Positions 10,188-33,660 of a stretch of 64,000 bases of DNA are shown one piece after another. The notes beneath the pieces are model-generated. The model did no database searches. It was given only the letters and a program-made list of their open reading frames with translations, and was not told where the DNA came from. Position numbers and translations under genes: made by a program. Source of the stretch: Lysobacter sp. MMG2 (GTDB lineage Bacteria; Pseudomonadota; Gammaproteobacteria; Xanthomonadales; Xanthomonadaceae); assembly GCF_016735495.2 (NCBI RefSeq), contig NZ_JAERQY020000001.1:248001-312000 (forward strand). The letters run 5' to 3'. Each line of letters starts with the position of its first letter. Position 1 is the first letter of the stretch.

Positions 10188-11288
10188 TCAGGCGCGCAGG
10201 CTGCGGCCGGTATCCGGGTCGAAGAAGTGCAGGTGGTCGGGGTTGTGGTCCAGGTGGACGGTGTCGCCGACCTTGGGCAGCTTGCGGGGCGGGAGGCGCA
10301 CGACCATCTCCTCGCCGCCACAGTCCAGATTGAGGAAGGCCTCGTTGCCGACCGGCTCGACCGTTTCCACCCGGGCCGTCAGGCGCCCGGGGCCGGCGTC
10401 GGCCAGGGAGAGGTCCTCCGGCCGCAGGCCCACGATCAGCCGCCGGCCGACCTGCCGGCGCAAGGTGCCGAGCAATTCCTCCTCGGCCACCAGAGCGAAG
10501 TCCACTCCGTCCTTCAGGCGCAACGCCAGCCCGCCGCCGCGCTCCACCACCTCGCCCTGCAGCAGGTTCATCTTCGGGCTGCCCAGGAACGTGGCCACGA
10601 ACAGGTTCGCCGGCCGGTTGTACAGCGCCATCGGCGTGTCGATCTGCTGGATGCGGCCTTTGTCGAGCACCACGATCCGCTGGCCCAGCGTCATCGCTTC
10701 GACCTGGTCGTGGGTGACATAGATCATCGTCGTGCCGAGCTTGCGGTGCAGGCGCGCGATTTCCACGCGCGTGGATGCGCGCAGCTTGGCGTCGAGGTTG
10801 GACAGCGGTTCGTCGAGCAGGAACACCTGCGGCTGCCGCACCAATGCGCGACCGAGCGCGACGCGCTGGCGCTGGCCGCCCGACAGCGCGGCGGGCTTGC
10901 GATCCAGCAGCGGTTCCAGTTCCAGCATCTGCGCCGATTCGCGCACGCGACGGGCGACCTCGTCCTTGGACGCGCCGCGCAGCTTCAGTCCGAAGCCGAG
11001 GTTCTCGGCCACCGTCATGTGCGGGTACAGCGCGTAGCTCTGGAACACCATCGCGATGTCGCGATCCTTCGGCGCGATGTCGTTCACCACGCGATCGCCG
11101 ATGCGCAACTCGCCGGAGGTGATCGTCTCAAGCCCGGCGATCATGCGCAGCAGCGTGGACTTGCCGCAGCCGGAAGGACCGACCAGCACCATCAGCTCGC
11201 CGTCGCCGATCTCGAAGGTCGCGTCGTCCACGCCCACGTAGCCGTTGGGATACACCTTGCGCAGACGATCCAGCGTGACCTTCGCCAT
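10188..11288 (-). CDS. Sugar ABC transporter ATP-binding protein (UgpC/MsmK/MalK type)
   Basis: A cytoplasmic ATPase energising a CUT1-type sugar importer. The 366 residues include Walker A GPSGCGKST (37-45), Q-loop FQSYALYPHMTV, signature LSGGQRQRVALGRA, Walker B VFLLDEPLSNLD, H-loop YVTHDQVEAMTL and a C-terminal TOBE/OB regulatory domain (residues ~240-366). The start at ATG 11288 (MAKVTLDRLRKVYPNG) is the family start. It has no permease or binding protein beside it; those lie at 24.8-27.8 kb, in the same orientation. It is transcribed divergently from the GH1 gene across a 141-bp region that holds a LacI-type operator. Like MsmK it may serve several importers. The exact substrate cannot be read from the ATPase, so no symbol is assigned. 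Confidence 0.93.
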   Translation of the reverse strand: MAKVTLDRLRKVYPNGYVGVDDATFEIGDGELMVLVGPSGCGKSTLLRMIAGLETITSGELRIGDRVVNDIAPKDRDIAMVFQSYALYPHMTVAENLGFGLKLRGASKDEVARRVRESAQMLELEPLLDRKPAALSGGQRQRVALGRALVRQPQVFLLDEPLSNLDAKLRASTRVEIARLHRKLGTTMIYVTHDQVEAMTLGQRIVVLDKGRIQQIDTPMALYNRPANLFVATFLGSPKMNLLQGEVVERGGGLALRLKDGVDFALVAEEELLGTLRRQVGRRLIVGLRPEDLSLADAGPGRLTARVETVEPVGNEAFLNLDCGGEEMVVRLPPRKLPKVGDTVHLDHNPDHLHFFDPDTGRSLRA

Positions 11289-11374
11289 GAATTCCTCGGG
11301 AGCCCCTGGGCGGCCTCGACGGACCGTACCGGCATTTTCGACGCGCCGGCGATGCAAATGTCACCGGCGTCCGC

Positions 11375-11400
11375 TATCCTGCCATGTAACCGTTTTCATG
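11375..11400 (+). promoter_or_regulatory. LacI-type operator plus -10 element upstream of GH1 gene
   Basis: TGTAACCGTTTTCA at 11385-11398 is a CG-centred near-palindrome typical of LacI-family sites, lying 31 nt upstream of the GH1 ATG. A TATCCT at 11375-11380 sits 4 nt before it and could be the -10, so the operator would cover the transcription start. Near-identical sites precede the TonB receptor gene (32533-32546) and lacI (33635-33648). It lies between divergent genes and could also affect the ATPase gene. Confidence 0.72.
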
Positions 11401-11429
11401 CCTATCCACCCCGTCAGGCCACCGTACCG

Positions 11430-12815
11430 ATGAGTCAAGCGTCCGATCAGTTCGCATTCCCCAAGGGCTTCCTGTGGGGCGCCGCCACCGCCGCCCATCA
11501 GATCGAAGGCTCGCCGCTGGCCGATGGCGCCGGCCCGAGCATCTGGACGCGCTTCGCGCACACGCCCGGGATGATGCTCAACGGCGACACCGGCGATGTC
11601 GCGTGCGATCACTACAACCGCTGGCGCGACGACGTGAAGCTGATGCGCGAGCTGGGCCTGCAGGCCTACCGCTTCAGCGTGTCGTGGTCGCGCATCCTGC
11701 CCGACGGCACCGGCCGCGTGAACCAGAAGGGCCTGGACTTCTATTCGCGCCTGGTCGACGAACTGCTCAACAACGGCATCGAACCGCTGCTCACGCTCTA
11801 CCACTGGGACCTGCCGGCGGCGCTGGACGATCGCGGCGGCTGGCTCAACCGCGACATCGCCGACTGGTTCGCCGAGTACGCCAGCGTGATGTACCGCGAG
11901 CTCGACGGCCGCGTGAAGAAGTGGGTCACACTCAACGAGCCGTGGGTGGTCACCGACGGCGGCTACCTGCACGGCGCGCTGGCGCCGGGCCATCGCAGCA
12001 AGTACGAAGCGCCGATCGCCTCGCACAACCTGATGCGCGCACACGGCGCGGCGGTGAAGGCGTATCGCGAGATCGGCAAGCACGAGATCGGCCTGGTGGT
12101 GAACATCGAGCCGAAGTACCCGGCGACCGATTCGAAGGAAGACGCCGCCGCCGTTCGCCGCGCGCATGCCTACATGAACGAGCAGTACCTGCACCCCGCC
12201 CTGCTCGGCCATTACCCGCCGGAACTGAAGGAGATCTTCGGTGACGCCTGGCCGCAGTGGCCGGCGGAAGACTACGAGCTGATCAAGCAGAAGCTCGACT
12301 TCGTCGGCATCAACTACTACACGCGCAGCGTGACCAAGGCCGCCGAGAGCTACCCGCTCAACACCGGCGTCGTGCGCCAGCCGCTGGGCACCTACACCGA
12401 GACCGGCTGGGAAGTGTTCCCGCAAGGCCTGACCGACCTGCTGCTGTGGTTCAAGCAGACCTACGGCGACCTGCCGGTCTACATCACCGAGAACGGCGCG
12501 GCGTTCTTCGATCCGCCGACCGCGATGGCGGACGACGACGGCAAGCGACGCATCAAGGACCCGCTGCGCACCGATTACCTGCGCAAGCACCTGCGGGCGA
12601 TCCACGACGCCATCGACGCCGGCGTGGACATCCGCGGCTACATGCTGTGGTCGCTGCTGGACAACCTGGAATGGTCGCTGGGCTATTCCAAGCGCTTCGG
12701 CATGATCCACGTGAACTACGCCACGCAGGAGCGCACGCCCAAGGACAGCGCGCTGTGGTACTCGAAGGTGATCGCAAGCCACGGGCGTTCGCTGTCCGAT
12801 CCGCTGCCCTACTGA
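11430..12815 (+). CDS. GH1 family beta-glucosidase
   Basis: A retaining beta-glycosidase releasing glucose from short beta-glucosides. The 461-residue single GH1 (beta/alpha)8 domain opens with the family signature FPKGFLWGAATAAHQIEG. The acid/base is Glu170 in TLNEPW, the nucleophile Glu354 in YITENG, and the C-terminal WSLLDNLEWSLGYSKRFG is also conserved. There is no signal peptide, so it is cytosolic and would act on imported oligosaccharides. It starts at ATG 11430, 31 nt after a LacI-type operator. Glucokinase follows 284 bp downstream, consistent with phosphorylation of the released glucose. Preference among beta-1,2/1,3/1,4/1,6 linkages cannot be read from sequence. Confidence 0.95.
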   Translation: MSQASDQFAFPKGFLWGAATAAHQIEGSPLADGAGPSIWTRFAHTPGMMLNGDTGDVACDHYNRWRDDVKLMRELGLQAYRFSVSWSRILPDGTGRVNQKGLDFYSRLVDELLNNGIEPLLTLYHWDLPAALDDRGGWLNRDIADWFAEYASVMYRELDGRVKKWVTLNEPWVVTDGGYLHGALAPGHRSKYEAPIASHNLMRAHGAAVKAYREIGKHEIGLVVNIEPKYPATDSKEDAAAVRRAHAYMNEQYLHPALLGHYPPELKEIFGDAWPQWPAEDYELIKQKLDFVGINYYTRSVTKAAESYPLNTGVVRQPLGTYTETGWEVFPQGLTDLLLWFKQTYGDLPVYITENGAAFFDPPTAMADDDGKRRIKDPLRTDYLRKHLRAIHDAIDAGVDIRGYMLWSLLDNLEWSLGYSKRFGMIHVNYATQERTPKDSALWYSKVIASHGRSLSDPLPY

Positions 12816-12881
12816 GGGCGCGTTTTCGCGACGGGATCCGCTGCCCCATTCCCTCCCTCGGCAGCGGGTCCCGCCGTCTTT

Positions 12882-12955
12882 GTAGCCCGGGTAAGCGAAG
12901 CGCACCCGGGTTCGTCGGCGCATCTGCCCGGATGCGCTTCGCTTCCCCGGGCTAC
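12882..12955. repeat. Inverted repeat of the GTAGCCCGGGTAAGCGAAGC type downstream of GH1 gene
   Basis: The arms 12882-12910 (GTAGCCCGGGTAAGCGAAGC then GCACCCGGG) and 12927-12955 are near-perfect reverse complements around a 16-bp loop. It is a common type of intergenic hairpin in xanthomonads and other gammaproteobacteria. No T-tract follows, so it is more likely a REP-type element, possibly helping termination or mRNA protection after the GH1 gene. Confidence 0.75.
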
Positions 12956-13099
12956 GGGAACCATGTTGCCGCGCGCTGATTTCGTATTCAGTCGCCCGGA
13001 CATCACCTTGGCGCGCCCGCATCGCAGACAGACGCGTGACGGTCCATTACGCTGCGCGACAACCTGCGCGATGCGCGACGACTCCGCCGTGGTGATGCC

Positions 13100-14089
13100 T
13101 TGAGCGACTCCTCCGCCCCCGAATCCCACGCCCTGCTCGCCGACATCGGCGGCACCAACGCGCGTTTCGCGCTGGCCCGGCACGACGACACCGATCCGCT
13201 GCTGATGGACAGCGTGCGCGAGTTCGCCGTCGCGGACTTTCCCTCGCTCGCCGATGCCGCCGCGCACTACCTGGACGTCACCGGCGCGCGTGCGCGCACG
13301 GGCGTGTTCGCCGTGGCCGGTCGCGTGGACGGCGATGAGGCGCGCATCACCAACCATCCCTGGGTGATTTCCGCCGCACGCACGGGCGAATCGCTGGGTC
13401 TGGAATCGCTGCGCCTGGTCAACGACTTCGCCGCGCAGGCCATGGGCGCCTCGCTGCTGCGTCCGCAGGATGTGGTCGCGCTGGGCGGCATCGGCTGGAA
13501 TGGACACGATCGCCAGGACCGCACCTTCGCCATCATCGGCGCGGGAACCGGCCTGGGCGTGGGCGGGCTGCTGCGTCGCGGCGGCCGCCATTTCCCGCTG
13601 CAGACCGAAGGCGGCCATGTCAGCTTCGCGCCGAACTCGCCGGAGGAGATCGAGATCCTCCAGCAGATGTCGGCCGAGTTCGGTCGCGTGTCGAACGAAC
13701 GCCTGGTCAGCGGCCAGGGCCTGGTGAACCTGCACCGTGCGCTGAGCAACATCGCCGGCGAAGACCCCGGCCCGCTCACGCCCGCCGACGTCACCGCGCG
13801 GGCGAAAGACGGCGACCCGCGCAGCCTGCGCACGATCGACGTCTTTTGCGCGGTATTCGGCGCGGCGGCCGGCGATCTGGTGCTGACGCTGGGCGCATGG
13901 GACGGCGTCTTCCTCACCGGCGGGCTGGTGCCCAAGCTGCTGCCGTCGATCGCCCATTCCGGCTTCCGCCAGCGCTTCGAGTACAAGGGCCGGTTCTCGC
14001 CGGTGATGGCGCGCATTCCGACCCTGGCGGTGGTGCATCCGCAGCCGGGCCTGCTCGGCGCCGCCGCGCTCGCCCAGGACGTCGCGTAA
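13100..14089 (+). CDS. glk: Glucokinase
   Basis: Phosphorylates cytosolic glucose with ATP. The 329 residues belong to the bacterial Glk (ROK-related) family. The N-terminal phosphate-binding motif is LLADIGGTNARFAL (residues 12-25), followed by LVNDFAAQA (catalytic Asp), IGAGTGLGVGGL, the TEGGHVSFAP glucose-binding segment and FLTGGLVPKLL adenosine-site residues near the C-terminus. No in-frame ATG exists before DIGGT; TTG 13100 is the best start, with a weak GGTGAT upstream. It lies between the GH1 beta-glucosidase and pgl in the same direction, fitting glucose entry into the Entner-Doudoroff or pentose phosphate route. Confidence 0.95.
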   Translation: MSDSSAPESHALLADIGGTNARFALARHDDTDPLLMDSVREFAVADFPSLADAAAHYLDVTGARARTGVFAVAGRVDGDEARITNHPWVISAARTGESLGLESLRLVNDFAAQAMGASLLRPQDVVALGGIGWNGHDRQDRTFAIIGAGTGLGVGGLLRRGGRHFPLQTEGGHVSFAPNSPEEIEILQQMSAEFGRVSNERLVSGQGLVNLHRALSNIAGEDPGPLTPADVTARAKDGDPRSLRTIDVFCAVFGAAAGDLVLTLGAWDGVFLTGGLVPKLLPSIAHSGFRQRFEYKGRFSPVMARIPTLAVVHPQPGLLGAAALAQDVA

Positions 14090-14129: not shown

Positions 14130-14870
14130 ATGGCCGACCGCTCGCCCCTTCCGCGCGACGACGCCGCTGCGGCGTACGTGCTGCACGTGCATCCGAACCA
14201 CGAGGTCTGGACCTGGGCCGCGGCCGTGGCGATCGCCGCCGAACTGCGCCGCGAACTGAGCCTGCGGCCGCGCGCGCGGCTGCTGCTGTCCGGCGGTGGC
14301 ACGCCGGGGCCGGTCTATCGCGCTCTGTCGCAGGCACCGCTCGAGTGGGAGCGCGTGGATGTCGGTCTGGTCGACGAGCGCTGGCTGCTGCCCGACGACC
14401 CCGACAGCAACGCCTGGCTCGTGCACCGCGACCTGCTGCGCGATCACGCCGCCGTCGCGCATTTCGAACCGATGACGCAGCCCGGCCGCCACATCGAAGG
14501 CGCGGTGGCCACCGCCAACGCGCACGCGCGCAACCAGGCGGCCATCGCGGTGCTCGGCATGGGCGAAGACGGCCACGTCGCGTCGCTGTTCCCCGGCATG
14601 GAAGGTTTCGACCGCATCCTCGCCAGCCCGCGCGACTACGCGGTCGTGGACGCGCACGATTGCCCGGGCGCGCGCCAGTGGCCGCGCCGCATCAGCCTCA
14701 CGCCGTACGGTCTGGCGCGCATCCCGCATCGCCTTCTGCTGTTGCAGGGCGAGCGCAAGCGCATGATCTTCGAGCAGGCCGTCGCATCAAACGACCCGCA
14801 ACGCTGGCCCGTGCTGCTCGCACTGGACAGCAAGCACGGCCGACCCTTGGAAGTGCACTGGTGCGAATGA
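14130..14870 (+). CDS. pgl: 6-phosphogluconolactonase
   Basis: Hydrolyses 6-phosphogluconolactone to 6-phosphogluconate, the second step of the oxidative pentose phosphate and Entner-Doudoroff pathways. The 246 residues have the glucosamine-6-phosphate isomerase/6PGL fold: LLLSGGGTPGPVYRAL (phosphate loop, ~residues 51-66), VGLVDERWL, DSNAWLVHRDLL, AVLGMGEDGHVASLFPG (catalytic His in GEDGH) and RISLTPYGL. It starts 40 bp after glk and is probably co-transcribed. Neither zwf nor edd/eda is in the window. Cytosolic. Confidence 0.94.
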   Translation: MADRSPLPRDDAAAAYVLHVHPNHEVWTWAAAVAIAAELRRELSLRPRARLLLSGGGTPGPVYRALSQAPLEWERVDVGLVDERWLLPDDPDSNAWLVHRDLLRDHAAVAHFEPMTQPGRHIEGAVATANAHARNQAAIAVLGMGEDGHVASLFPGMEGFDRILASPRDYAVVDAHDCPGARQWPRRISLTPYGLARIPHRLLLLQGERKRMIFEQAVASNDPQRWPVLLALDSKHGRPLEVHWCE

Positions 14871-15630: not shown

Positions 15631-16569
15631 CTACACCTGCGGCACACCCCGCGAACGACCCACCTCCGAGCGTGGCGGCGCACCGAACAGGCGCTTGTAC
15701 TCGCGACTGAACTGCGACGGGCTCTCGTAGCCGACATGGCGCGCGGCGGAGAGCGCCTCCATGCCGCCGGCCATCATCAGGCGCCGCGCTTCGTGCAGGC
15801 GCAGATGCTTCTGGAACTGCAGCGGCGACATCGTCGTCACCGCCTTGAACTGGTGGTGGAACGAGGAAGTGCTCATGTGCACGGTGCGCGCGAGTTCATC
15901 GATGCTCAGCGGCTCCAGGTAGTCCTCGCGCAGCTTCGCCACGGCGCGCGCGATGCGGCTGGAGCGTGTGTCGGTCATCGCCAGTGCACGCAGGCGGTAG
16001 CCGAGTTCGCCGGTGAGCACGCGATAGAGGATCTCGCGCCGCGTCATCGCCGCGAGCATCGCCAGATCGTCCGGCGCGTCGAGCAGGCGCATCAACCGCA
16101 ACACGGCGTCCATCAGCGGCGCGTTGACGCGCGCGGCGTACAGCCCCGGGTCCACGCCTGAAGGCGGCGGTGCCGGCGACTGCCCGGCGTCCACGAGAAG
16201 ACTCGCCACGTCGTCCGGGTCGATGTCCAGGCGCAGGCACAGGTACGGCTCATCCGGCGTGGCCTCGATCACCTGCCCCGACACCGGCAGCGTCACCGAC
16301 ACGACGAGGTAGTTGAGCGGGTTGTAGTAGTAGGTCTGCCCCGCCAGCGTCGCGGTCTTGCAGCCCTGCGCGACGATCACCAGACGCGGCTCGTACACGG
16401 CCGGCATGCACTCGGTCGGCTGGCTGATGCGGACCACGCTCAGCGGCGCGTACGCGGTGCCATGGACGCCGTCGGACGGCGTCAATCGGGCAATCCGGCC
16501 GGCAAGCTCGCGCAGCGCGGGGCAACCGGCATGGTGTTCGGGCGTTGCCGTGGAAACACTGGCATTCAT
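15631..16569 (-). CDS. AraC-family transcriptional regulator with AraC_N domain
   Basis: A DNA-binding regulator of 312 residues. The N-terminal ~190 residues form the AraC_N cupin-type domain (EPRLVIVAQGCKTATLAGQTYYYNPLNYLVVSVTLPV). The C-terminal ~100 hold two helix-turn-helix motifs: LSIDELARTVHMSTSSFHHQFKAVT, then MEALSAARHVGYESPSQFSREYKRLFG, ending PPRSE. It is transcribed divergently from the RND efflux pair across 264 bp and is the obvious candidate regulator of that pump (inference). Regulators of this type often control aldehyde- or oxidoreductase-related genes, so the ligand is unknown. Confidence 0.93.
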   Translation of the reverse strand: MNASVSTATPEHHAGCPALRELAGRIARLTPSDGVHGTAYAPLSVVRISQPTECMPAVYEPRLVIVAQGCKTATLAGQTYYYNPLNYLVVSVTLPVSGQVIEATPDEPYLCLRLDIDPDDVASLLVDAGQSPAPPPSGVDPGLYAARVNAPLMDAVLRLMRLLDAPDDLAMLAAMTRREILYRVLTGELGYRLRALAMTDTRSSRIARAVAKLREDYLEPLSIDELARTVHMSTSSFHHQFKAVTTMSPLQFQKHLRLHEARRLMMAGGMEALSAARHVGYESPSQFSREYKRLFGAPPRSEVGRSRGVPQV

Positions 16570-24500: not shown

Positions 24501-24758
24501 GTCGGGATAGTCCAGCGGCAGTTCGCGTTGCAGGCCGGCGTAACCGGACACACCGTTGAAATCGTAATCCAGGCACACCGCCTTGCCGTCCGCGCCCGGC
24601 ACTGTGCGCAGCTTGCCGCTGACCTGGTCGGAGGTGACGACCTGCCACGGCGTCGTGGTTTCGAAGGCGTCCAGCACTCGGATCTCTCCGACGCCCTGCG
24701 CCCACGCCATCATCGGAACGAGCACACCGGCCCACGCCAAACGCTTCACCGCTCTCAC
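21537..24758 (-). CDS. Secreted discoidin (F5/8 C)-type plus (alpha/alpha)6-like glycoside hydrolase, uncharacterised
   Basis: A 1073-residue exported protein, probably a periplasmic or surface glycosidase acting with its operon. Layout: signal peptide (RLAWAGVLVPMMAWA-QG); a beta-sandwich carbohydrate-binding region (residues ~25-165, EFGFRVRGDSPPNDLQFKL); an F5/8 type C (discoidin) module (~185-300, GGLTLRWAPGHAATRYRIALSRDGRDWQDV); a beta-rich linker; and an all-helical C-terminal catalytic region from ~residue 630 with SRAWIRDGAMIGEGLLRMG, NDSHGELIFTIAEVYRFNRD, MHSYWDNFWALRGYKDA and PHAWVASDYVRSALDLFAY, like six-hairpin (clan GH-G/L/M/Q-type) hydrolases. I cannot place it in a numbered GH family. 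The GTG start at 24758 overlaps the upstream permease stop; GTG 24749 is an alternative. It is the last gene of the operon. Confidence 0.8.
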   Translation of the reverse strand: MRAVKRLAWAGVLVPMMAWAQGVGEIRVLDAFETTTPWQVVTSDQVSGKLRTVPGADGKAVCLDYDFNGVSGYAGLQRELPLDYPDDYEFGFRVRGDSPPNDLQFKLVDDSGDNVWWVNKPRFEFPKEWTPVVYKKRHISRAWGPTPDSTLRHSRKVEFTIYNSVGGKGTVCLDTLTFRRRPVDTTPPPRPSARASVEMVGGAPALAVDDDAASAWIAPVEVSPAPLLEMDLGRLREFGGLTLRWAPGHAATRYRIALSRDGRDWQDVREVSSGNGGQDPIALPESEARYLRLQFEAGQDAQPYSPPYYALADVVIEPLAFAATPNDFVRSVAKDAPRGHFPRGFSGEQPYWTILGLDGGVEQGLIGEDGAIEVGKGAFSIEPFVVSDGRLVSWADVKTTQSLQDGYLPIPSVHWQHAEFALDITAFAHGERDDSHLTARYRLRNTSDLPRRYVFALAARPMQVNPPTQFLSTVGGVSAIHSISASEGVVLVEGRNPVRASKSHAAFASRFDEGDVVARMARADWSSFCADGCETGNVFAAVGPSTTSVSDDTGLASGALLYSVELAPGQASEFDWSVRLTGKDPQPPRPPIDAANAQEATAALWRSKLDRVQLRVPAQGQHVVDTLRTALAHMLISRIGPRLQPGTRSYSRAWIRDGAMIGEGLLRMGREDVATEFLRWYAPYQFDNGKVPCCVDDRGSDPVPENDSHGELIFTIAEVYRFNRDHALLESMWPHVVGAFEYMEKLRLSERTQANRARNPAFYGMMPASISHEGYSAKPMHSYWDNFWALRGYKDAVEIAQWLGKDDDAKRFIAARDQFRDDLYASLRAATQQHGIDFLPGAAELGDFDATSTTIALAPGGEQGRLPQDLLTNTFERYWREFVARRDGTREWKDYTPYELRTIGTFVRLGWRDRAHEALDFFFADQQPRAWNQWAEVVSRTPRKPFFVGDLPHAWVASDYVRSALDLFAYTRDADDALVLAAGIPSGWLAGEGVGVSNLRTTYGPLGYSLMERDGRVLFSLSPDTKVPPGGVVLTWPYATAPGATRIDGKPAQWKGGELKIERAGAKVEVALR

Positions 24759-25576
24759 CCTTTCACGCTCCCGACCAGCAGGCCCTGCAGGTAGTACCGC
24801 TGCAACGCCAGGAACAGGATCAACACCGGTAACACCGTCACTACCGACCCGGCCATCATCATCTCGTTGTCCTGCACGTGTTCGCGCGACAGCGAGGCCA
24901 ACGCGACGGGCAGTGTGAAATGGCCCGAATCGCTGAGCACGATCAGCGGCCACATGAAGTCGTTCCACGCGCCCAGGAACACGAAGATCGCCAGCGTCAC
25001 CAGAATCGGCTTGAGCACCGGCAGCACGATCTGGAAGAAGATGCGTGTCTCGCTGGCGCCGTCGATGCGCGCCGCCTCCAGCAGTTCGTCCGGGATCGAG
25101 CGCGCGTACTGGCGCACCAGGAAAATGCCGAACACGCTCGCCATCAGCGGCACCACCGCGCCGGCGTACGTATTCACCAGCCCCATCTGCTTGAGCATCA
25201 GGAATAGCGGCATCATCGTCACCTGCGCCGGGATCACCAGCGCGGCCAGCAACAGTCGGAACACGCGCTCGCGCCCGGCGAACTTCAGCTTGGCGAAGGC
25301 GTAACCCGCCATGGTGTTGAGCAGCAGCGCGATGGCCGTGGCGACCGTCGCGATCAGCGTGCTGTTGAGCAGGTAGCGGCCCATGCCGGCACGGGCGAAC
25401 AGCTCGTGGTAATTCGCCAGCGTGGCGTTGGAAGGCCACAACGGCGGCGGGAAGTGGCTGGCCTCGCCGGGCTGCATGAAGGACACCGACAGCATCCACA
25501 GCAGCGGCGCGAGGCTGATCACCGCCAGCGCGATCATCAGGCCGTTGACAATGGCACGGGCCAGGCGCGGGGTCAT
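24755..25576 (-). CDS. Sugar ABC transporter permease (MalG/CUT1 type)
   Basis: One of two inner-membrane permeases of the importer. It is 273 residues with six TM helices (ALAVISLAPLLWMLSVSFM, STLIATVATAIALLLNTMAGYAFA, LLLAALVIPAQVTMMPLFLM and others). The EAA loop ELLEAARIDGASETRIFFQIVLPVLKP contacts the ATPase. The C-terminus RYYLQGLLVGSVKG is the MalG hallmark. The start at ATG 25576 lies 1 bp after the other permease's stop (TGACATG), and its own stop overlaps the next gene's GTG, so the operon is tightly coupled. Confidence 0.95.
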   Translation of the reverse strand: MTPRLARAIVNGLMIALAVISLAPLLWMLSVSFMQPGEASHFPPPLWPSNATLANYHELFARAGMGRYLLNSTLIATVATAIALLLNTMAGYAFAKLKFAGRERVFRLLLAALVIPAQVTMMPLFLMLKQMGLVNTYAGAVVPLMASVFGIFLVRQYARSIPDELLEAARIDGASETRIFFQIVLPVLKPILVTLAIFVFLGAWNDFMWPLIVLSDSGHFTLPVALASLSREHVQDNEMMMAGSVVTVLPVLILFLALQRYYLQGLLVGSVKG

Positions 25577-25577: not shown

Positions 25578-26474
25578 TCATTCCGCTCCTTTGCGTCGTG
25601 CGAACCACAGCAGGCCGCTGGTCGCCACCGTCATCAGCGCGAACAGCAGGAACGCCACCGCCGACGCATTGCCCAGGTTCCACCACTTGAAGCCCTCGTC
25701 GTACATCAGGTACAGCACGCTCACCGTGCTTTGCAGCGGCCCACCCTGGGTGATGACGTAAGGCTCGGCGAACAGCTGGAAATAGCCCGACAGCGTGAGG
25801 ATGCCGACCATCAGCAGCACCGGCCCCAGCTGCGGCAAGGTGACGTTCCAGAACTGCTGCGCGGGCGTGGCGCCGTCGATGCGCGCGGCTTCGTACAGGT
25901 CCTCGGGGATCGACTGCAGGCCGGCGATGAAGATGATCATGTTGTAGCCGAAGTTCTTCCACACGGCGAAGGCGATGATGGTCGGCATCGCCCAGGTGGG
26001 ATCGCCCAGCCAGTCGATCGGATCCAGCCCGATGGAAGTGAGCCCCCAGTTCACCAGTCCGTAGCGCGTGTGGAACAGGTAGCGCCAGATCACCGCCACC
26101 GCGACCACCGTGGTGACCACCGGCGCGAAGAACGCGGTGCGGAAGAACGGCTTGAAAACCGCGACCTTGGAATGCAGCAGCAACGCCGCGCCCAGCGACA
26201 CCGCGATCGACAGCGGCACGCCGACCACGACGAAGTACATCGTGTTGCCCAGCGCCTTCCAGAACAGCGGGTCCTGCAGCAGGTTCCAGTAATTGCCCAG
26301 TCCGACGAAGCGCAGATTCGACAGATCCGCCAGCGAGTAGATGTCGAAATCCGTCAGGCTCAGCGCGAAGGCCGCCAGCACGGGCAATCCGAAGAACAGG
26401 CCGATCACCACCAGCGCGGGCGCGGCGAACATCCAGCCGGCGGTGGAGGCGCTGACCCTGGGCGCGATGGTCAT
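25578..26474 (-). CDS. Sugar ABC transporter permease (MalF/CUT1 type)
   Basis: The partner permease, 298 residues with six TM helices: WMFAAPALVVIGLFFGLPVLAAFALSL, FWKALGNTMYFVVVGVPLSIAVSLGAALLL, FFRTAFFAPVVTTVVAVAVIWRYLF and so on. The EAA loop is EDLYEAARIDGATPAQQFWNVTLPQLGP. The MalF family start MTIAPRVSASTAGW is at ATG 26474, which overlaps the binding-protein stop (ATGA). It forms the transmembrane channel with the MalG-type permease; the ATPase is encoded at 10.2-11.3 kb. Confidence 0.95.
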   Translation of the reverse strand: MTIAPRVSASTAGWMFAAPALVVIGLFFGLPVLAAFALSLTDFDIYSLADLSNLRFVGLGNYWNLLQDPLFWKALGNTMYFVVVGVPLSIAVSLGAALLLHSKVAVFKPFFRTAFFAPVVTTVVAVAVIWRYLFHTRYGLVNWGLTSIGLDPIDWLGDPTWAMPTIIAFAVWKNFGYNMIIFIAGLQSIPEDLYEAARIDGATPAQQFWNVTLPQLGPVLLMVGILTLSGYFQLFAEPYVITQGGPLQSTVSVLYLMYDEGFKWWNLGNASAVAFLLFALMTVATSGLLWFARRKGAE

Positions 26475-27805
26475 CGCGAACCTCCTGCGGCGGCGTCCTG
26501 ATCCATCATCCAGCGGCGCTTTTCGAGGATGGCGTCGGCGCGGCGGTCGAGTTCCGTCGCCGCTTCATCCACGGTGTAGCGGCCGGCGACCAGCTGCTCG
26601 CCGACGATGCGCAGCTCCTGCGCGATGCGTTCCCACTCCGGCACTTTCGGCGCGGGTTTGGCGCGTTCGAGCTGTTCGCGAAACGGCAACGTGTACGGGT
26701 CGGTCGCCAGCGCCTGGCTGCTCTCCCACGCACTGCGGCGTGGCGGCAGGTTGCCCGTGAGCGTGTGGAATCGCACCTGCACCTGCGGATCCGACAGGTA
26801 CGCGACCAGCTTCCACGCCGCGTCCTTGTTCTTCGCCTGCTGGAACACGACGAAGCTCGCGCCGCCGGCGACGGACGCACCCGGGCCGTCCGGACCCGGC
26901 AACGGCATCGTGCCCCACTGGCCTTCCATCGACGGCGGCAGGCGCTTGCGGAACTCGGCGATGTTCCAGGGGCCGTTGACGTAGAAGGTGTAGAGGCCGC
27001 GGCCGAACTCGTTCCAGACGTTGGAGATCTGGTTGTTGCTGAAGGGCGGCGCCCACTTCTGCACGAAGATGTCGTTGTAGAACGCCAGCGTGCGGCGGAA
27101 GCCGTCGCTGCGGAAATTGCCGTAGCGGCCGTCGTCGCGCAGCAGCGGGTCGGGCTGCTGGATGGCGAGGTTCAGCAGCGGCTCGTACTCGTTGAGCGGC
27201 AGCAGGATCGCGTAACGCTCGGGCCCGACGTGGCGCTTCACCGCCGCCATCGCCTCGCGCCATTGCGCCCAGGTGCGCGGCGGTTGCTTCACGCCCGCGG
27301 CCTCAAGGATGTCGCGTCGATAGAACGGCAAGCGCGTTTCCACGTACCACGGCACCGCGTACACATGACTGCCGATCACGCCGGTGTCCCACGAGCCCCG
27401 GAAGTAATCGTCGGGCGACATCGACGGCGTACGCGCGAGGAACGGCTCCAGCGGCGCGACCGCGCGCAGCTCGACAAACTCTGCCAGCCAGGTGTTGCCC
27501 AGCCCGCACACATCGGGCAGGCCGTCACCGGCGAAGGCGGTCAGCAGCTTCTCGTGCGCGGCGGTGACCGGCAGTTGCTGCACTTCCACGCGGATGTCGG
27601 GATGCAGGCGTTCGAAGTCGGGGATGAGCTGGCGCACCATCTCGCCTTCGAAGCCCATCGCCCAGAAGCGCACCACCTGGCGCGCGTCGCGCTCGCCTCC
27701 GCAACCGGCGATGACGAGCGTGGCGAGCATCGCCAGGACGAACATCATCCAGCGCGCGGCTTTCGTGCCGATGCCTGCCGTGCCGGACGCGCGCGCGCGG
27801 ATCAT
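26471..27805 (-). CDS. Sugar-binding lipoprotein of ABC importer (SBP_bac_1 type)
   Basis: A periplasmic solute receptor anchored by a lipid, 444 residues. The signal MMFVLAMLATLVIAGCG has lipobox VIAGC. The mature protein follows the cluster B extracellular sugar-binding fold: RQVVRFWAMGFEGEMVRQLIPDFERLHPDIRVEV, FAGDGLPDVCGLGNTWLAEF, YAVPWYVETRLPFYRRDILEAAG, GGASFVVFQQAKNKDAAWKLVAYL. The start at ATG 27805 is 7 bp after the GH144-like gene's stop. It probably recognises an oligosaccharide released by the upstream glucanase; the specificity is inferred only from context. Confidence 0.94.
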   Translation of the reverse strand: MIRARASGTAGIGTKAARWMMFVLAMLATLVIAGCGGERDARQVVRFWAMGFEGEMVRQLIPDFERLHPDIRVEVQQLPVTAAHEKLLTAFAGDGLPDVCGLGNTWLAEFVELRAVAPLEPFLARTPSMSPDDYFRGSWDTGVIGSHVYAVPWYVETRLPFYRRDILEAAGVKQPPRTWAQWREAMAAVKRHVGPERYAILLPLNEYEPLLNLAIQQPDPLLRDDGRYGNFRSDGFRRTLAFYNDIFVQKWAPPFSNNQISNVWNEFGRGLYTFYVNGPWNIAEFRKRLPPSMEGQWGTMPLPGPDGPGASVAGGASFVVFQQAKNKDAAWKLVAYLSDPQVQVRFHTLTGNLPPRRSAWESSQALATDPYTLPFREQLERAKPAPKVPEWERIAQELRIVGEQLVAGRYTVDEAATELDRRADAILEKRRWMMDQDAAAGGSR

Positions 27806-27812: not shown

Positions 27813-29465
27813 TCACTTCGGCTGCGGCTTGGATTCGGGTGCGGGCGGCGGCGTCTGCGATCCGCGGTTCACGCGCGACTCCGCCTCGCCCAGCGCGCGC
27901 GCCGTGGCGGCGTCCTTCTCTTCCTTGGTCTGCGGCTTGGGCTGCGTCGATGCGGTCTCGCCCTCCTTCACCGGCTCCAGCCAACCGCCCTTGAAGCCCG
28001 CCTTCTGCAATCCGTCGCGGATGTACTTGTTCCGCTTCATCACGTTCCAGACGAAGTCGTTGCGGTAGTTGGCGATCATCGCCAGGATCGGCCCCTGGTC
28101 GATGCCGATGTAATCGCTGGCGACCCAGCCCTCGCCCGGCACGAGGCGGCCGGTCTTGAGCGGGATGTCGAAGTCGAAGCTGCGATTGAACGAATCCAGG
28201 AAGCCGTAGCTGGAGTACAGGTACTCGCCGTAGCGTTCGTGGATCGCCACGGTGCTGGGAATGACGATCTCCGGCGCGAACGGCAGCGACGCGATGGCCG
28301 CCGTCGGCGCGATGGTGCCGTCGTCGAAGGTGTCGCGCAGGCCGGCGCCGCGTGCGGAATAGTGGCGGAACTGGCGCTGTTCGCCGCGGAACTCCTGCAG
28401 CGTCTGCTGCGGGCCGTCGCTGGCGGTGAGGCCCCACACTTCCGGGCCGTAGTCCTTCCACTTCATCGGATTGGCGATGGCGTAGGCGCGTTGCGCGTAA
28501 GCCGCGCGGCGGCTGTTCTCGAAGTAATCGATGCCGCGCTCGCGCATGTAGTCGTCCTGGATGCCGCGGAAGTCGATCCAGACGTGGCTGTACTGATGGC
28601 CGAACAACGGGCCGAACGCGAGGTATTCCTCGCCCTGGTAGACGCCCCAGGAGTCGTTGTAGGTGCGCGTCCACACCTCCCATGCTTCCGGCTCCACCGG
28701 ATGCGTGGGCGAAGCGAGCGCGAGGATGTAGAGCATCATCGCCTCGTTGTAGCCGGTCCAGTCGTGCTGGATGAAGCCGCTCTCGGGGAACCAGCCCATC
28801 GAGATCAACGGCGCGTTGCGCTGCAGCCACGGCCAGTCGACGCGGCGATAGAGCGTGTCGGCGATGTCGCGGATTTCCTTCTCGCGCGGATCGTCGCGGT
28901 CGTAGTAACTCTGCGCGAACAGCACGCCCATCATCAGCAGCGCCGTGTCCACGCTGGAGAGTTCGACCCAGCTCTGGTAGCGGTGGCCGGTGTCCATCTC
29001 CAGGAAGTGGTAGTAGAAGCCGTGATAGGCGCCCTTGCCTTCCGCCTGCTCGCCGGAGGGAATGTCGCGGAAGAACTTCAGCGTGGTGAGCGTGCGGTCC
29101 ACCGCCTGGCGGCGGCTGACCCAGCCGTTCTCGATGCCGATCGGGTACGCGGTGAGCGCGAAACCGACCGAGGCGATGCTCGCGAACGGACGCGAGGGAT
29201 AGCGATCGGGCGTGAGGCCGTTGACTTCGTTCGTCGTGTCCCAGAAGAACTGGAACGTGCGCTTCTCGATGTCGCGGAACAGCGGCGGCAGTTCGAGCTT
29301 GGTCGGCTTGAGCGGTTCGACTTCCACCGGAGGCGCGGCTGCGATCGGATAGGTCTGCGATGCCGGCTCGTTACGCCCGCAGCCCGAAATGAACACCAGC
29401 ACCGCCACCAGCGATGCAGTTCCCCAACTGCGTCGGATCGATTGAAACATCAGCACGCTGTTCAT
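27813..29465 (-). CDS. PF10091 glucoamylase-like/GH144-type beta-glucanase lipoprotein
   Basis: A probable endo- or exo-glucan hydrolase at the cell surface or in the periplasm, ~550 residues. The lipoprotein signal TASLVAVLVFISGCG is followed by a Pro-rich linker. From ~residue 55 the (alpha/alpha)6 domain matches the PF10091 family: IEKRTFQFFWDTTNEVNGLTPDR, ASIASVGFALTAYPIGIENGW, GAYHGFYYHFLEMDTGHR, SVDTALLMMGVLFAQSYY, DWTGYNEAMMLYILALASPTHP (Glu241 in GYNEA), YSHVWIDFRGIQDDYMRERG and GTIAPTAAIASLPFAPE. Characterised GH144 members of this family are beta-1,2-glucanases or sophorohydrolases. A Lys/Pro-rich tail ends the protein. The start is ATG 29465; ATG 29450 and GTG 29480 are alternatives and none has a clear SD. 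A strong hairpin lies just upstream. Confidence 0.85.
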   Translation of the reverse strand: MNSVLMFQSIRRSWGTASLVAVLVFISGCGRNEPASQTYPIAAAPPVEVEPLKPTKLELPPLFRDIEKRTFQFFWDTTNEVNGLTPDRYPSRPFASIASVGFALTAYPIGIENGWVSRRQAVDRTLTTLKFFRDIPSGEQAEGKGAYHGFYYHFLEMDTGHRYQSWVELSSVDTALLMMGVLFAQSYYDRDDPREKEIRDIADTLYRRVDWPWLQRNAPLISMGWFPESGFIQHDWTGYNEAMMLYILALASPTHPVEPEAWEVWTRTYNDSWGVYQGEEYLAFGPLFGHQYSHVWIDFRGIQDDYMRERGIDYFENSRRAAYAQRAYAIANPMKWKDYGPEVWGLTASDGPQQTLQEFRGEQRQFRHYSARGAGLRDTFDDGTIAPTAAIASLPFAPEIVIPSTVAIHERYGEYLYSSYGFLDSFNRSFDFDIPLKTGRLVPGEGWVASDYIGIDQGPILAMIANYRNDFVWNVMKRNKYIRDGLQKAGFKGGWLEPVKEGETASTQPKPQTKEEKDAATARALGEAESRVNRGSQTPPPAPESKPQPK

Positions 29466-29528: not shown

Positions 29529-32498
29529 TCAGAAGTTGAAGCCGAGCGAGAGCTTGAACGTACGGGTCGGGAATGCGACCTGCGAGTTCGGTTCACCGAA
29601 GTTGGGGTTCGCCGGGGACCCGAAGTTCCCGGGGAAATCGTCGTAGCCGTCGTAGTTCGCCCAGTCGAAGACGTTCAGGATGTCACCGCGCACCCACATC
29701 TTGAAGCCCGAACCGGTGTCGAAGTCCTTCTGCGCCGCCAGATCGACCTGCTTGTAACCGAAGTCGCCATCGGGCTTGTACTGATCGATGAAGCAGTTGT
29801 TCGGTCGATCGATGTCGAAGCAGTTGACGAAGTAGCGCGGGATCTTCGACGACAGCGTGATCTTGCCCGAGAGCGTCACGCCCCACGGGCCGTCGTAGAG
29901 GCCGGTGGCGACGAGGCGGTGATCGGGCACTTCGGCGTCGTTCCAGCCGTACTGGTTGAGCGTGGGGTAATCCAGCGCGAAGACTTCCGGCGACTCGCGC
30001 ATCTCCTCCGCGTGGAGGAAGGTGTACGCGATGGTGACGCCCCAGCCGGATTCGGCCGTGTACGGCTTCTCCGCCTTCAGGTACAGCGAACTGGTGCGCG
30101 TCTTGAGGCCATTGGTGCCCAGGATCAGGTTGCTGAAACCGTCCAGCCCCTGGTTGAACGGTGAGCCCCACTGGAAGCCGGGCGCGAAGAACGTGCCGTC
30201 GTCGCGACGGTTGCCGAGCAACCATGCGAAGCCGTCATGCCCTTCCACGTACGAGATCGTGGCGTCCGTCAGCCATTCGCCCACGGTGTTACGCATGCCC
30301 AGGCTGAACTGGTCGGAGTACGGCACCTTCAGATCGTTGTCGAGCAGGAACACCTCACGTCCACCTCCGTCGGGCGACGCGAGCGCGGCCAGCGTCGCCG
30401 GATCGAAGAACGCCGGATTCCAGTCCACGCACGGTTCGGTCGCGAGCGGGCACGTACCGTCGCCGCGGCGGAAGTACACGTTGGTGGCCGGGAACGTGGC
30501 CTTGGTGACTTCCAGTTGCAGCCAGTCGAAGAGATTGCGGTCGTAGGCGCGTCCCGCACCGCCGTAGATCACGTGGCGCTGGTCGGCGTTGAGGTCGTAG
30601 GAGAAACCCACGCGCGGCTGCCAGGCGTCCTTGAACGAGTCGCGGTTGTTGCCGGTGCTGATGTAGTCGTTGATGTTCACGCCGGAGTTCGGCGCGTTGA
30701 TCGCCGTGGACGCGCGCAGCGCGTCGACCACGTCGGCGGGCGTGACGAAGTTGGTGTAGCTGGGGCTCTTCTCGTAGTCGTAGCGCAGGCCGAGGTTGAG
30801 GATCAGGTGGTCGTTGACCTCCCAGTCGTCCTGGAAATAGATGCCGTACTGCTTGTTGCTCGACTCCGCGCTGCCGTCGCCGACACCCGGCAGGGCCGAA
30901 CCGAACCGCACGTGGATGGGCTGGACGAGGCTGCCGTTGACGTCGTAGGTGAACTGCGGGTTGTACGGCTGGCGCTCGATCGCGCTGACGTCGACATCCT
31001 TGAACTTCACGCCCATCTTCATCGTGTGGCCCGTGAGGCCCGTGTAGGTCAGGTCGTCCTGGAAGCCCCAGCCTTTCTGTCCCTTCTCCTGGAAGTCCGA
31101 GCCCGCCCCGCTGCGCGTGATCAGGCGCGCGTTGACGTCGCTGCCGTTGAAGTTGATCAGGTTGTACGCCACGCCGTTGTTGAGCGGGCTGGGGTTGAAG
31201 CTAGCGTCCTCGTAGGTGATGTGCGCGTCGTTGAGCCAGGCACCATGGGTGAACTGGTAGCGCAGGTCTACGCGCGTTTCCTCGTTGAGCTTGTTGGTGG
31301 CGTAACTGGGCAGGTTGGGACCGTTGCCGAGGTTGGTCAGCTCGCTCTCGTCGCGGTACTTGGTGGTGAATTCGAAATAATGGTCCTCACCCAGCAGCCA
31401 GTCGATCTTGGCGAAGTACAGATCTTCCTTGAAGGGCGCGATGAACAGTCCGGTACCGGCCTCTTCCTGCAGCGCTGCCGGCAACCGGTCGATGGTGTAG
31501 CCCTCGCCCAGCGTCAGCGAGCGCGCCCGGTCGAACTCCTTCGCCTCGTAGGCCAGGAAGAAGTGCGCCGTGTCGCGCAGGATCGGGCCGCCGAACGTGG
31601 CGCCGTATTGTTCGGCACCGGTTTCGGCCTTGGTGTCCAGACGCTCCTCGAAGACCGTGCGCGTGCGCCAGTCCTTGGAGGTGCGGTCCCAGAAGAAGCT
31701 GCCTTCGAAGTTGTTGGTGCCCGAGCGCGTGGTGGCCACGATCGCTGCGCTGTTGAGCTGGTCGTACTCGGCCTTGTAGTTCTGCGTGATGATCTTGTAT
31801 TCGCCGATGGCCGATTGCGGGAACGGGTTGCCGCTGGTGGAGTCCTGGCCGCTGATGCCGCCGCGCAGCACGTAATCCTTCTGGCCGACGCCGTCGATGT
31901 AGACGTTGATGCCATTGGGAGTGCCGGCGCCGGAGCGGATGCGCGTGGAGCCGTCGGCGCCCTGCTGGAATTCCATGCCCGGCGCCAGATCGACGAAGGA
32001 CAGGAAGTTGCGCGAATTCTGCGGAAGCATGTCGATCTGCTTGCCGCTTACGTAGGTGGCGATTTCCGATGTCTTCACTTCCGCCAGCGCCACACCGGTG
32101 ACGGTGACCGTGTCGACCGTCGTGGCGTCTGCGACCGGACCGGTCTCCGCGACGCCGCCGGCCGAAAGATTCAGCGTGGCGGTCTGGCCGACGGCCAGCG
32201 TTACGGTCTTGGTCGTGGTCTGCCCGCCGGCGACCGCGTCGATGCGGTACGTGCCGGGCGGGAGGCCGCCGACGTTGTAGGTACCGTTGACGGCCTGCAC
32301 CTTGCGCGAGAGTCCGGTGGCCGTGTTGGTGGCGGTGATCTGCGCATCGCTCGCGGGGGCCGCGTCGACGGTGATCTGTCCACGGATGGTCGCCGAGGTG
32401 CTCTGCGCCATCACCGCGGGGGCGGCGACGGCCAGGCAACTGGCCAGGGCGCAGGCAAGCAGCCTGCGCGACGGAAGGCGGGGGAACCTTGAATTCAT
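29529..32498 (-). CDS. TonB-dependent outer-membrane receptor with carboxypeptidase-regulatory-like domain
   Basis: An outer-membrane active transporter for a large sugar ligand, 989 residues. The signal peptide (RRLLACALASCLAVAAPAVMAQ) is followed by a carboxypeptidase-regulatory-like beta-sandwich (residues ~35-110, ATIRGQITVDAAPASDAQITATN), a TonB-box/plug region (VDTVTVTGVALAEVKTSEIATYV, then NSRNFLSFVDLAPGMEF, YKIITQNYKAEYDQLNSAAIVATTRSGTNNFEG) and a ~700-residue 22-strand barrel ending in aromatic FKLSLGFNF. It belongs to the Oar-like/CarboxypepD_reg group common in xanthomonads. The start at ATG 32498 has AGAGGA 6 nt upstream; the ORF continues upstream without homology. A LacI-type operator lies 35 nt before the start. 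It is the first gene of the operon. Confidence 0.95.
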   Translation of the reverse strand: MNSRFPRLPSRRLLACALASCLAVAAPAVMAQSTSATIRGQITVDAAPASDAQITATNTATGLSRKVQAVNGTYNVGGLPPGTYRIDAVAGGQTTTKTVTLAVGQTATLNLSAGGVAETGPVADATTVDTVTVTGVALAEVKTSEIATYVSGKQIDMLPQNSRNFLSFVDLAPGMEFQQGADGSTRIRSGAGTPNGINVYIDGVGQKDYVLRGGISGQDSTSGNPFPQSAIGEYKIITQNYKAEYDQLNSAAIVATTRSGTNNFEGSFFWDRTSKDWRTRTVFEERLDTKAETGAEQYGATFGGPILRDTAHFFLAYEAKEFDRARSLTLGEGYTIDRLPAALQEEAGTGLFIAPFKEDLYFAKIDWLLGEDHYFEFTTKYRDESELTNLGNGPNLPSYATNKLNEETRVDLRYQFTHGAWLNDAHITYEDASFNPSPLNNGVAYNLINFNGSDVNARLITRSGAGSDFQEKGQKGWGFQDDLTYTGLTGHTMKMGVKFKDVDVSAIERQPYNPQFTYDVNGSLVQPIHVRFGSALPGVGDGSAESSNKQYGIYFQDDWEVNDHLILNLGLRYDYEKSPSYTNFVTPADVVDALRASTAINAPNSGVNINDYISTGNNRDSFKDAWQPRVGFSYDLNADQRHVIYGGAGRAYDRNLFDWLQLEVTKATFPATNVYFRRGDGTCPLATEPCVDWNPAFFDPATLAALASPDGGGREVFLLDNDLKVPYSDQFSLGMRNTVGEWLTDATISYVEGHDGFAWLLGNRRDDGTFFAPGFQWGSPFNQGLDGFSNLILGTNGLKTRTSSLYLKAEKPYTAESGWGVTIAYTFLHAEEMRESPEVFALDYPTLNQYGWNDAEVPDHRLVATGLYDGPWGVTLSGKITLSSKIPRYFVNCFDIDRPNNCFIDQYKPDGDFGYKQVDLAAQKDFDTGSGFKMWVRGDILNVFDWANYDGYDDFPGNFGSPANPNFGEPNSQVAFPTRTFKLSLGFNF

Positions 32499-32532
32499 AT
32501 GCTTCCTCTCTCCAAAAGCATGTCGAACCGCA

Positions 32533-32546
32533 TGGAATCGTTTACA
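32533..32546 (-). promoter_or_regulatory. LacI-type operator upstream of TonB receptor gene
   Basis: Read on the minus strand, TGTAAACGATTCCA lies 35 nt before the receptor ATG. It matches the operators at 11385 and 33635 in at least 11 of 14 positions, with the central CG kept. It lies in the 89-bp gap after the lacI stop, so the receptor operon has its own regulated promoter. Confidence 0.7.
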
Positions 32547-32587
32547 GCGAACAGCCACAAGAATCCGTGACGCTCAGCGGGCGTTGG

Positions 32588-33604
32588 TCACGGAGAACGC
32601 GGGGAAGGCGTGGGCGAGCCGCTCGACTCGCGCACGATCAGCTCCGTCGAAAGCACCGACGATTCGCTGGCCGCATCTCCGGCGACCTGCGCGATGAGCA
32701 ATCGGGCCGCGCGCGCGCCGAGTTCGGCGATGTTGACGCGGATGGTCGTGAGCGCCGGGTGGACGTAGCGCGCCAGAGGAATGTCGTCGAAGCCGGCCAC
32801 GGCGATGTCGCCCGGCACGTTCACGCCGGCCTGCGCGAAGGCGAACAGGCAGCCCAGCGCCATCATGTCGTTGGCGGCGAACACGGCATCGGGCCGCTGC
32901 GCGGCGGCGAGCAACTCGTGTCCGGCACGGTGCCCGGAGGCTTCGGAGAAGTCGCCCTGCAACACCCATTCGGCGGTGCCGGGCAGTCGCTGCGCGAGCG
33001 CATCGCGATAGCCGCGCAGACGCTCGTGCGCATCGAAATTGCCGGTGGGACCGGCGATGAAGGCGATGCGACGATGGCCGATGGCGACGAGGTGCTCGAC
33101 CATCGTCACCGCGCCGCCGTAGTTGTCGACGCCCAGCACGGCGGTGCCGTCGAGTTCGGCCTGGCTGTTGATGAGCAGGGTCGGCAGCGACGGATCGAGG
33201 TGTTCGCCCAGGCTCGGCGTTTCGACGAAGGGCGACATGACGATCAGTCCGTCGACGCGTCCGCGCATCGCGCGCAGCGCGGCGCCCTGCTCTTCCGGAT
33301 TGCCGTGATAGCTGGACACCAGCAGGTGCAGCCGTTGCGCGCGGGCGATCTGGTCGATGCCGCGGATGAGCTCGGAGAAGAATTCGCCGTGCAGGTCCGG
33401 CAGGACCACGCCGAGCGTCTGGGTGCGCCGGCTGCTCAGGCTGCGCGCGGCGGCGTGCGGCGTGTAGCGCAGCTCCTGCGCGGCGGCGAAGACTCGGTTG
33501 CGGACGTCTTCGGCCACGTTGCCGTGGCCATTGAGCGCGCGCGAAACGGTGGCCACCGATACCTGCGCCACGCGGGCGACGTCTTTAATGGTTACGCTCG
33601 ACAC
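32588..33604 (-). CDS. LacI-family transcriptional repressor of the sugar regulon
   Basis: A 338-residue DNA-binding repressor. The N-terminal helix-turn-helix and hinge are TIKDVARVAQVSVATVSRALNG...RSLSSRRTQTLGVVLPDL. A periplasmic-binding-protein-like ligand domain follows, with VDGLIVMSP, GVDNYGGAVTMVEHLVAIGHRRIAFIAGP, ANDMMALGCLFAFAQAGVNVPGDIAVAGFDD and HPALTTIRVN. The GTG start at 33604 has GGAGG 6 nt upstream and gives the canonical MSSVTIKDVARVA start; the longer ORF is not conserved. It lies directly upstream of the receptor operon, has an operator 30 nt before its own start (autoregulation) and probably also controls the GH1 promoter 22 kb away. The inducer is probably a gluco-oligosaccharide. 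Confidence 0.94.
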   Translation of the reverse strand: MSSVTIKDVARVAQVSVATVSRALNGHGNVAEDVRNRVFAAAQELRYTPHAAARSLSSRRTQTLGVVLPDLHGEFFSELIRGIDQIARAQRLHLLVSSYHGNPEEQGAALRAMRGRVDGLIVMSPFVETPSLGEHLDPSLPTLLINSQAELDGTAVLGVDNYGGAVTMVEHLVAIGHRRIAFIAGPTGNFDAHERLRGYRDALAQRLPGTAEWVLQGDFSEASGHRAGHELLAAAQRPDAVFAANDMMALGCLFAFAQAGVNVPGDIAVAGFDDIPLARYVHPALTTIRVNIAELGARAARLLIAQVAGDAASESSVLSTELIVRESSGSPTPSPRSP

Positions 33605-33634
33605 GCAGGGCCTCCGCGGACAATGCGCGCGGAC

Positions 33635-33660
33635 TGTAATCGTTTTCAAATTCGAGTGTA
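33635..33660 (-). promoter_or_regulatory. LacI-type operator and -10 element upstream of lacI
   Basis: TGTAATCGTTTTCA at 33635-33648 (minus strand TGAAAACGATTACA) lies 30 nt before the repressor GTG. A TACACT -10 candidate (minus strand, 33660-33655) sits 6 nt before the operator, so binding would cover the transcription start, suggesting autorepression. It shares its core with the sites at 11385 and 32533. Confidence 0.68.

Follow-up and report, generated by a model that had tools for sequence, protein, structure and literature searches.

A predicted LacI-family regulon for beta-1,2-glucan utilisation, spread over about 22 kb, in Lysobacter and its relatives

Genes and operator-like sites of the locus

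The window, that is the whole stretch of 64,000 nucleotides from Lysobacter sp. MMG2 that was analysed, contains the following genes and sites, listed by position.

10188..11288, minus strand: importer ATPase, MalK/UgpC type (PF00005, PF17912, PF08402; UgpC subfamily model above cut-off)
11385..11398, plus strand: predicted operator 1, between the divergent ATPase and GH1 genes; conserved in relatives
11430..12815, plus strand: GH1 beta-glucosidase (PF00232; TIGR03356 above cut-off)
13100..14089, plus strand: glucokinase (PF02685)
14130..14870, plus strand: 6-phosphogluconolactonase (TIGR01198)
15631-16569, minus strand: AraC regulator, inside the locus, not a regulon member
16834-20043, plus strand: RND pump, inside the locus, not a regulon member
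20040-21179, plus strand: pump fusion protein, inside the locus, not a regulon member
21537..24749, minus strand: GHx, with an F5/8-type-C module and a predicted GH94-like hairpin glycosidase fold; start codon position approximate
24755..25576, minus strand: ABC permease 2 (PF00528)
25578..26474, minus strand: ABC permease 1 (PF00528)
26471..27805, minus strand: sugar-binding protein, SBP (PF01547; matches 3UOR, then Lin1841)
27813..29450, minus strand: GH144 endo-beta-1,2-glucanase homologue (PF10091, "putative glucoamylase"; matches 8XUL, E 1e-269)
29529..32498, minus strand: TonB-dependent receptor (PF25183 and PF00593, the receptor barrel)
32533..32546, minus strand: predicted operator 2, before the receptor operon
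32588..33604, minus strand: LacI-family regulator (PF00356, PF13377)
33635..33648, plus strand: predicted operator 3, before lacI

The gene names given in the original prediction (ATPase, GH1, SBP, two permeases, LacI and TonB receptor) hold when compared with family models, and the coordinates bear out its layout, with the ATPase beside the first site and the permeases and SBP in the receptor operon. The regulator features the helix-turn-helix and the sugar-binding-like effector domain of the LacI family (PF00356, PF13377). A TonB receptor, an inner-membrane transporter, a degradative enzyme and a regulator are found in one locus, as in the definition of a CUT locus given in the excerpted part of PMC1790865: this is a familiar anatomy, that of a CUT locus run by LacI and equipped with a MalEFGK-like importer. 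The GH1 protein has, by eye, no apparent signal peptide.

The letters originally quoted for the three sites are present at 11385-11398 (+), 32546-32533 (-) and 33635-33648 (+). Operator 1 is separated by 31 nt from the GH1 start codon (ATG 11430) and, on its other side, by 96 nt from that of the divergent ATPase (ATG 11288); operator 3 lies 30 nt from the lacI start (GTG 33604). Both predicted distances were correct, while for operator 2 the gap to the receptor start (ATG 32498) is 34 nt, and not 35. When one mismatch is allowed, the pattern produces 6 strand matches in the window (the three sites, counted once per strand), where 0.15 would be expected; none of 100 shuffles of the window reached 6. 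Since the pattern was derived from these three sites, more weight attaches to their conservation in relatives. The whole-genome scan suggested with the prediction was run: the 4,167,003-base genome contains five exact sites, three of them in the window, and 28 one-mismatch strand matches, compared to 12 for the backward pattern.

The core of the palindrome equals the E. coli GalR consensus; the operator letters themselves had no match in the literature searched for them. An even, CG-centred palindrome is found before lacI and before its putative targets, and is kept in relatives, as expected for a LacI local regulon; this type of palindrome is described as a feature of LacI-family regulons in the excerpted part of PMC4052901. 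The sole sigma-70-like match in the scanned stretches, at 33662-33633 (-), overlaps the lacI operator; none was found there at operators 1 and 2, which counts against a single repressor acting at all three sites. An exact site elsewhere in the genome, C3:526690, falls within a gene for a flavodoxin-type reductase and was treated as a chance occurrence. Its letters recur once each in the relatives G045 and G105, for which coding conservation could be responsible.

Importer, GHx and substrate

No ATPase gene is present inside the importer operon. The ATPase next to operator 1 is the only protein of the genome with an OB_MalK domain, and at E<=1e-90 its single match in the genome is itself. SBP, two permeases and an ATPase with an OB/TOBE regulatory domain correspond to the composition of a CUT1-type (MalEFGK-like) importer. 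The PF01547 profile gives 5 rows for four genome proteins, one frame accounting for two of the rows. Besides SBP, these SBP_bac_1 proteins comprise a molybdate binder, a sulfate binder and one located beside pstC, pstA and pstB. Because the operon lacks an ATPase and the other three proteins belong to or adjoin phosphate, molybdate and sulfate systems, the importer is the sole sugar-type one of its class seen in the genome; one ATPase serving several sugar importers was, on the evidence of these three proteins, rejected here. As the only OB_MalK protein of the genome, the ATPase very likely completes the importer of the receptor operon, and all these observations support the original proposal to this effect.

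GHx, 1070 residues long, is kept at 58-80% over 29 relatives. Its matches to family models are weak glycosidase ones, with none to the GH94 family model that a GH94 phosphorylase would be expected to match. For the structural model (mean pLDDT 81.9), the best Foldseek matches are GH94 cellobiose phosphorylases (E 5.2e-17, with a low TM of 0.42 by query length), and a cyclic glucan synthase is also among the matches (TM ~0.4). A GH94-like hairpin glycosidase fold is suggested by the model.

The molecule matched by the PF10091 protein in PDB 8XUL (E 1e-269) is named XCC2207. XCC2207 is XcSGL, a GH144 enzyme active on beta-1,2-glucan, with no detected activity on other glucans in the excerpted rows of PMC12102758, where the clan-defining residues are given as E239, F286 and Y367. 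The matching residues, E236, F283 and Y364 after fitting that numbering by hand to the alignment, are all present; catalytic-domain homology and the E/F/Y clan residues thus both assign the protein to GH144. The crystal chain in 8XUL features a Q at the first clan residue, and is taken for the mutant. SBP matches the structures 3UOR (E 6e-162) and Lin1841 (E 1e-61), the next others starting from 1e-28. Lin1841 binds Sop3-5 according to the excerpted part of PMC12369401: the nearest ligand-characterised match of SBP is, in other words, a Listeria sophorooligosaccharide binder. Its nearest structure, 3UOR, is named a putative maltose/trehalose binder, which goes against a beta-1,2-glucan assignment; in the excerpt of PMC7676653 its specificity is listed as unknown. 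Since the GH144 protein matches XCC2207 and SBP matches Lin1841, beta-1,2-glucan is most likely the substrate of the locus, as judged from homology.

Gene order and sites in relatives

Of 119 family genomes, 60 have an SBP match at E<=1e-60. In all 20 mapped relatives, lacI, the receptor, GH144, SBP, the permeases and GHx follow each other in the same order, and in 16 of the 20 everything is in one locus; the distance between SBP and ATPase is 6 to 16 kb, on one contig, in 16 of the 20, and 15.2 kb in the window. SBP and ATPase both reach contig ends in G066, are about 509 kb apart in G062 and are on different contigs in G015 and G020. In compact loci (e.g. L056, L059, L065) GHx, GH1 and ATPase adjoin. 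Of three same-genus relatives, G045 and G105 carry the RND/MFP/AraC cassette within the locus and G078 does not; the cassette is also there in 4 of 80 named loci (L153, L154, L157, L159), and is missing from this place in most mapped relatives. In some relatives, e.g. G070, the gap is filled by other genes.

Because of this gene order, the spread over about 22 kb is best read as that of one usually compact locus with later insertions, its split being secondary. An ancestral arrangement in two clusters was ruled out by the same comparison. The original prediction had described an importer split over two clusters: the spread stands, while the two original clusters give way to one locus with insertions.

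Sites in relatives were scored over 12 positions of TGTAAnCGnTTACA, with a strict threshold of at least 11. In the 20 relatives, this score is reached before lacI in 20 of 20, before ATPase in 20 of 20 (23 rows, three genomes occurring twice), before GH1 in all the 17 relatives that have it (19 rows, two genomes occurring twice) and before the receptor in 14 of 20. The remaining genes score 9 at most, with the exception of glk in two genomes and pgl in one, where the search stretch runs into the neighbouring operator. A second lacI, in L129, scores 7.

The 80 named loci come from Lysobacter, Luteimonas, Pseudoxanthomonas, Xanthomonas, Stenotrophomonas and Vulcaniibacterium; rows with less than 150 nt upstream, with an alignment starting after query residue 60 or below 80 bits were left out. 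Here, a score of at least 11 is found for lacI in 68 of 69, ATPase in 37 of 44, GH1 in 16 of 17, GH144 in 44 of 77, the receptor in 22 of 69, glk in 3 of 45, pgl in 1 of 37 and SBP in 0 of 77; the counts are not independent, because the 20 relatives overlap the 80 loci (e.g. G045/L153, G035/L162, G015/L156) and many are near-kin Xanthomonas. Ten control genes have a site in none of 337 rows. Over the 1.77 Mb of these loci, 189 sites score at least 11, against 0 for the backward motif, whose maximum is 10, in one ATPase row. The site of the operon precedes the receptor in some lineages and GH144 in others. Against control of the operon, the ATPase and lacI by one repressor, a site of at least 11 between lacI and SBP is lacking in 17 of 69 named loci, and all three sites occur together in 23 of the 38 loci holding lacI, SBP and ATPase.

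ATPase genes lying beyond 10 kb of the operon keep a site of at least 11 in 21 of 22 genomes, most of them Xanthomonas, close kin to one another. No ATPase lies in the examined stretch of 36 loci, and for 22 of these a distant one was looked for; the remaining 14 include short contigs. In the corresponding upstream regions the backward motif scores 9 at most. The sole miss among the 22 is Pseudoxanthomonas jiangsuensis, with no site of at least 11 upstream of its distant ATPase; no site was found upstream of a second, partial ATPase paralogue in X. pisi. In X. arboricola pv. juglandis about 140 kb of the same contig separate the ATPase from the operon, and in Luteimonas huabeiensis the ATPase lies just past the edge of the examined stretch.

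Two motif copies, 46 bp apart, are present before lacI at G119:C1:1057903 and 1057949 (L328), and at the matching place in G123 (G123:C1:4336518 and 4336564). For such paired copies, cooperative binding is possible.

The proposed regulon and known systems

Six LacI proteins of the genome are above the cut-off. The recognition stretch SVATVSR, which is also that of E. coli GalR and GalS, is found solely in the one described here; the other five feature SPMTVSR, SKKTVSR, SLKTVSR, SQATVSR and SRATISL. A second LacI in a relative (L056:18275-19330), 51% identical and also carrying SVATVSR, adjoins the ATPase. The shared palindrome, its retention at distant ATPase genes and the unique SVATVSR argue for one regulator acting on both gene groups, in support of the original prediction. 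The overall reading, to which we assign a probability of roughly 0.8, is that a local LacI-family repressor controls itself and one beta-1,2-glucan utilisation locus, split by a later insertion.

The sites, the gene content, its conservation and the single MalK-type ATPase are direct observations; repressor binding, repression, inducer, substrate and cell compartments are what we infer in the following scheme. When the inducer is absent, LacI would sit on the three GalR-like palindromes and block lacI itself, the operon for the TonB receptor, the GH144 endo-beta-1,2-glucanase, SBP, the two permeases and the further hairpin glycosidase, and the divergent promoter of ATPase and the GH1 beta-glucosidase, with glucokinase downstream. 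The TonB receptor would admit beta-1,2-glucan, which would be cut to oligomers in the periplasm; the ABC transporter would take these up, and their hydrolysis would yield glucose, to be phosphorylated. The insertion would have parted ATPase from the permeases, the shared operator keeping their expression together.

The pattern is not exclusive to the locus, as indicated by the sites outside it: in 10 relatives, 27 motif sites are inside the locus, and 13 exact sites outside (five DUF481, one GH3 and seven others), against 2 matches for the backward control. The regulon is probably larger than these three promoters. G105 lacks a GH1 match and has the motif in front of a GH3 gene; the motif also precedes GH3 glucosidase genes in two Xanthomonas and two Stenotrophomonas genomes, whose loci have no GH1 nearby. 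GH3 genes with the motif are seen in the G105, Xanthomonas and Stenotrophomonas stretches L280, L322, L342, L332, L333 and L326; in the last one a LacI-like gene, recognised by eye, stands beside the GH3 gene. Small DUF2628 genes have the motif upstream too, one in X. hortorum and another, recognised by sequence likeness, in S. maltophilia (L335:1501, L320:1501).

In the Lysobacter genome itself, a one-mismatch site at C3:255046 (L281:3547-3560), with a score of at least 10, precedes a PF04349 gene of the MdoG/OpgD type. The best solved match of its product is 8X18, named Glucans biosynthesis protein D, presumably XccOpgD. The MdoG/OpgD family is placed in GH186, acting on beta-1,2-glucan, and XccOpgD makes an alpha-1,6-cyclised form, as reported in the excerpted part of PMC11228985. 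For the best orthologues in 12 relatives (L296-L308) the site scores 10 or 11 in five, 9 in two and less in five, where only scores of at least 10 mean much, because the backward motif reached 9 once at such genes; 11 other copies or homologues score 8 at most. Because the alignment shows a promoter-like stretch after the site, the site is unusually placed for a repressor, and the position given for the start codon is uncertain. A further site, at C1:1620236 (L146:9237-9250; relatives in L287-L295), precedes a DUF481 gene behind a molybdopterin-oxidoreductase/DmsC operon. Leaving out genomes first found through the motif, which would bias the count, it scores at least 10 in 4 of 5 genomes with the importer and in 0 of 4 without; GGCATAAT is still present at the gene in three of the four importer-less genomes.

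A tentative extension, which we hold to be possible but rather doubtful, is that LacI also acts at the opgD-type GH186 and DUF481 genes, in a circuit sensing sophoro-oligosaccharides and adjusting glucan processing, where GHx would help to open or trim cyclic, alpha-1,6-closed glucan. If so, scavenging of beta-1,2-glucan would be linked to the cell's own periplasmic glucan, in the genus and some neighbours.

Three other explanations may be weighed against the control of one beta-1,2-glucan locus by its own repressor. The same regulon might serve another beta-glucan or a maltose-type sugar, GH1 enzymes being often broad; this is unlikely, in view of the match of the PF10091 protein to XCC2207, of Lin1841 as the next match of SBP, and of the operator-like site also found before the OpgD-type gene. 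Look-alike sites might instead be used by different LacI-family regulators, leaving the GH1/ATPase promoter outside the reach of this LacI. The six LacI proteins of the genome and the exact sites outside the locus in the 10 relatives fit such an arrangement, which is nevertheless improbable to a higher degree: SVATVSR occurs in one of the six, the same motif precedes both lacI and ATPase in most genomes, and a homologue of this LacI is found at the ATPase end in just one of the 20 relatives (L056). Chance occurrence, or promoter sequence devoid of a regulatory role, might be suspected from the number of one-mismatch matches genome-wide; with sites that recur before the same genes in six genera, are missing from control genes and are kept at the distant ATPase, its probability is close to nil.

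No description of this regulon was recognised in the literature searched. New with respect to known loci, as predictions from sequence, would be a family-wide regulon, the assignment to beta-1,2-glucan, with its bearing on 3UOR, and the account of the split; the link to periplasmic glucan genes would also be new, and is tentative. With control by LacI at a common palindrome, a large bacterial family would be expected to have a regulon for beta-1,2-glucan uptake, the X. citri MalE structure would have a candidate ligand, and a MalK-type ATPase apart from its permeases would be accounted for. There is also an initial indication that one regulator may serve both the scavenging of glucan and the processing of periplasmic glucan.

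Several known systems resemble parts of the locus. The E. coli GalR/GalS operators share the palindrome core of the three sites, with other targets and effector. X. citri MalE (3UOR) is the closest solved relative of SBP, and XcSGL (XCC2207, 8XUL) that of the GH144 protein, with the three clan residues conserved; the excerpted account of XcSGL in PMC12102758 concerns the enzyme, not a regulon or importer. As in the Xanthomonas sux sucrose CUT locus (PMC1790865, in excerpt), a TonB receptor, an inner-membrane transporter, a carbohydrate enzyme and a regulator occur together; unlike that locus, the window has an ABC importer with a separate ATPase and a beta-1,2-glucanase. XCC2207 does not appear in the main text of PMC1790865. 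Streptomyces griseus SGR_2422-2427, in the excerpted part of PMC12369401, likewise combines a sophorose-acting GH1, a Lin1841-type SBP and a beta-1,2-glucanase, which is GH193 in place of GH144, and LacI is unmentioned in the main text of that source. For beta-1,2-specific GH1 enzymes, specificity residues have been described in SGR_2426. In the excerpted part of PMC3960220, the Listeria innocua cluster lin1838-lin1843 has no TonB receptor, and GH94 phosphorylase and GH3 replace GH144 and GH1. As in the window, a LacI gene stands there beside a beta-1,2-glucooligosaccharide ABC importer and a beta-glucosidase, and LacI was suggested as a possible regulator of the cluster.
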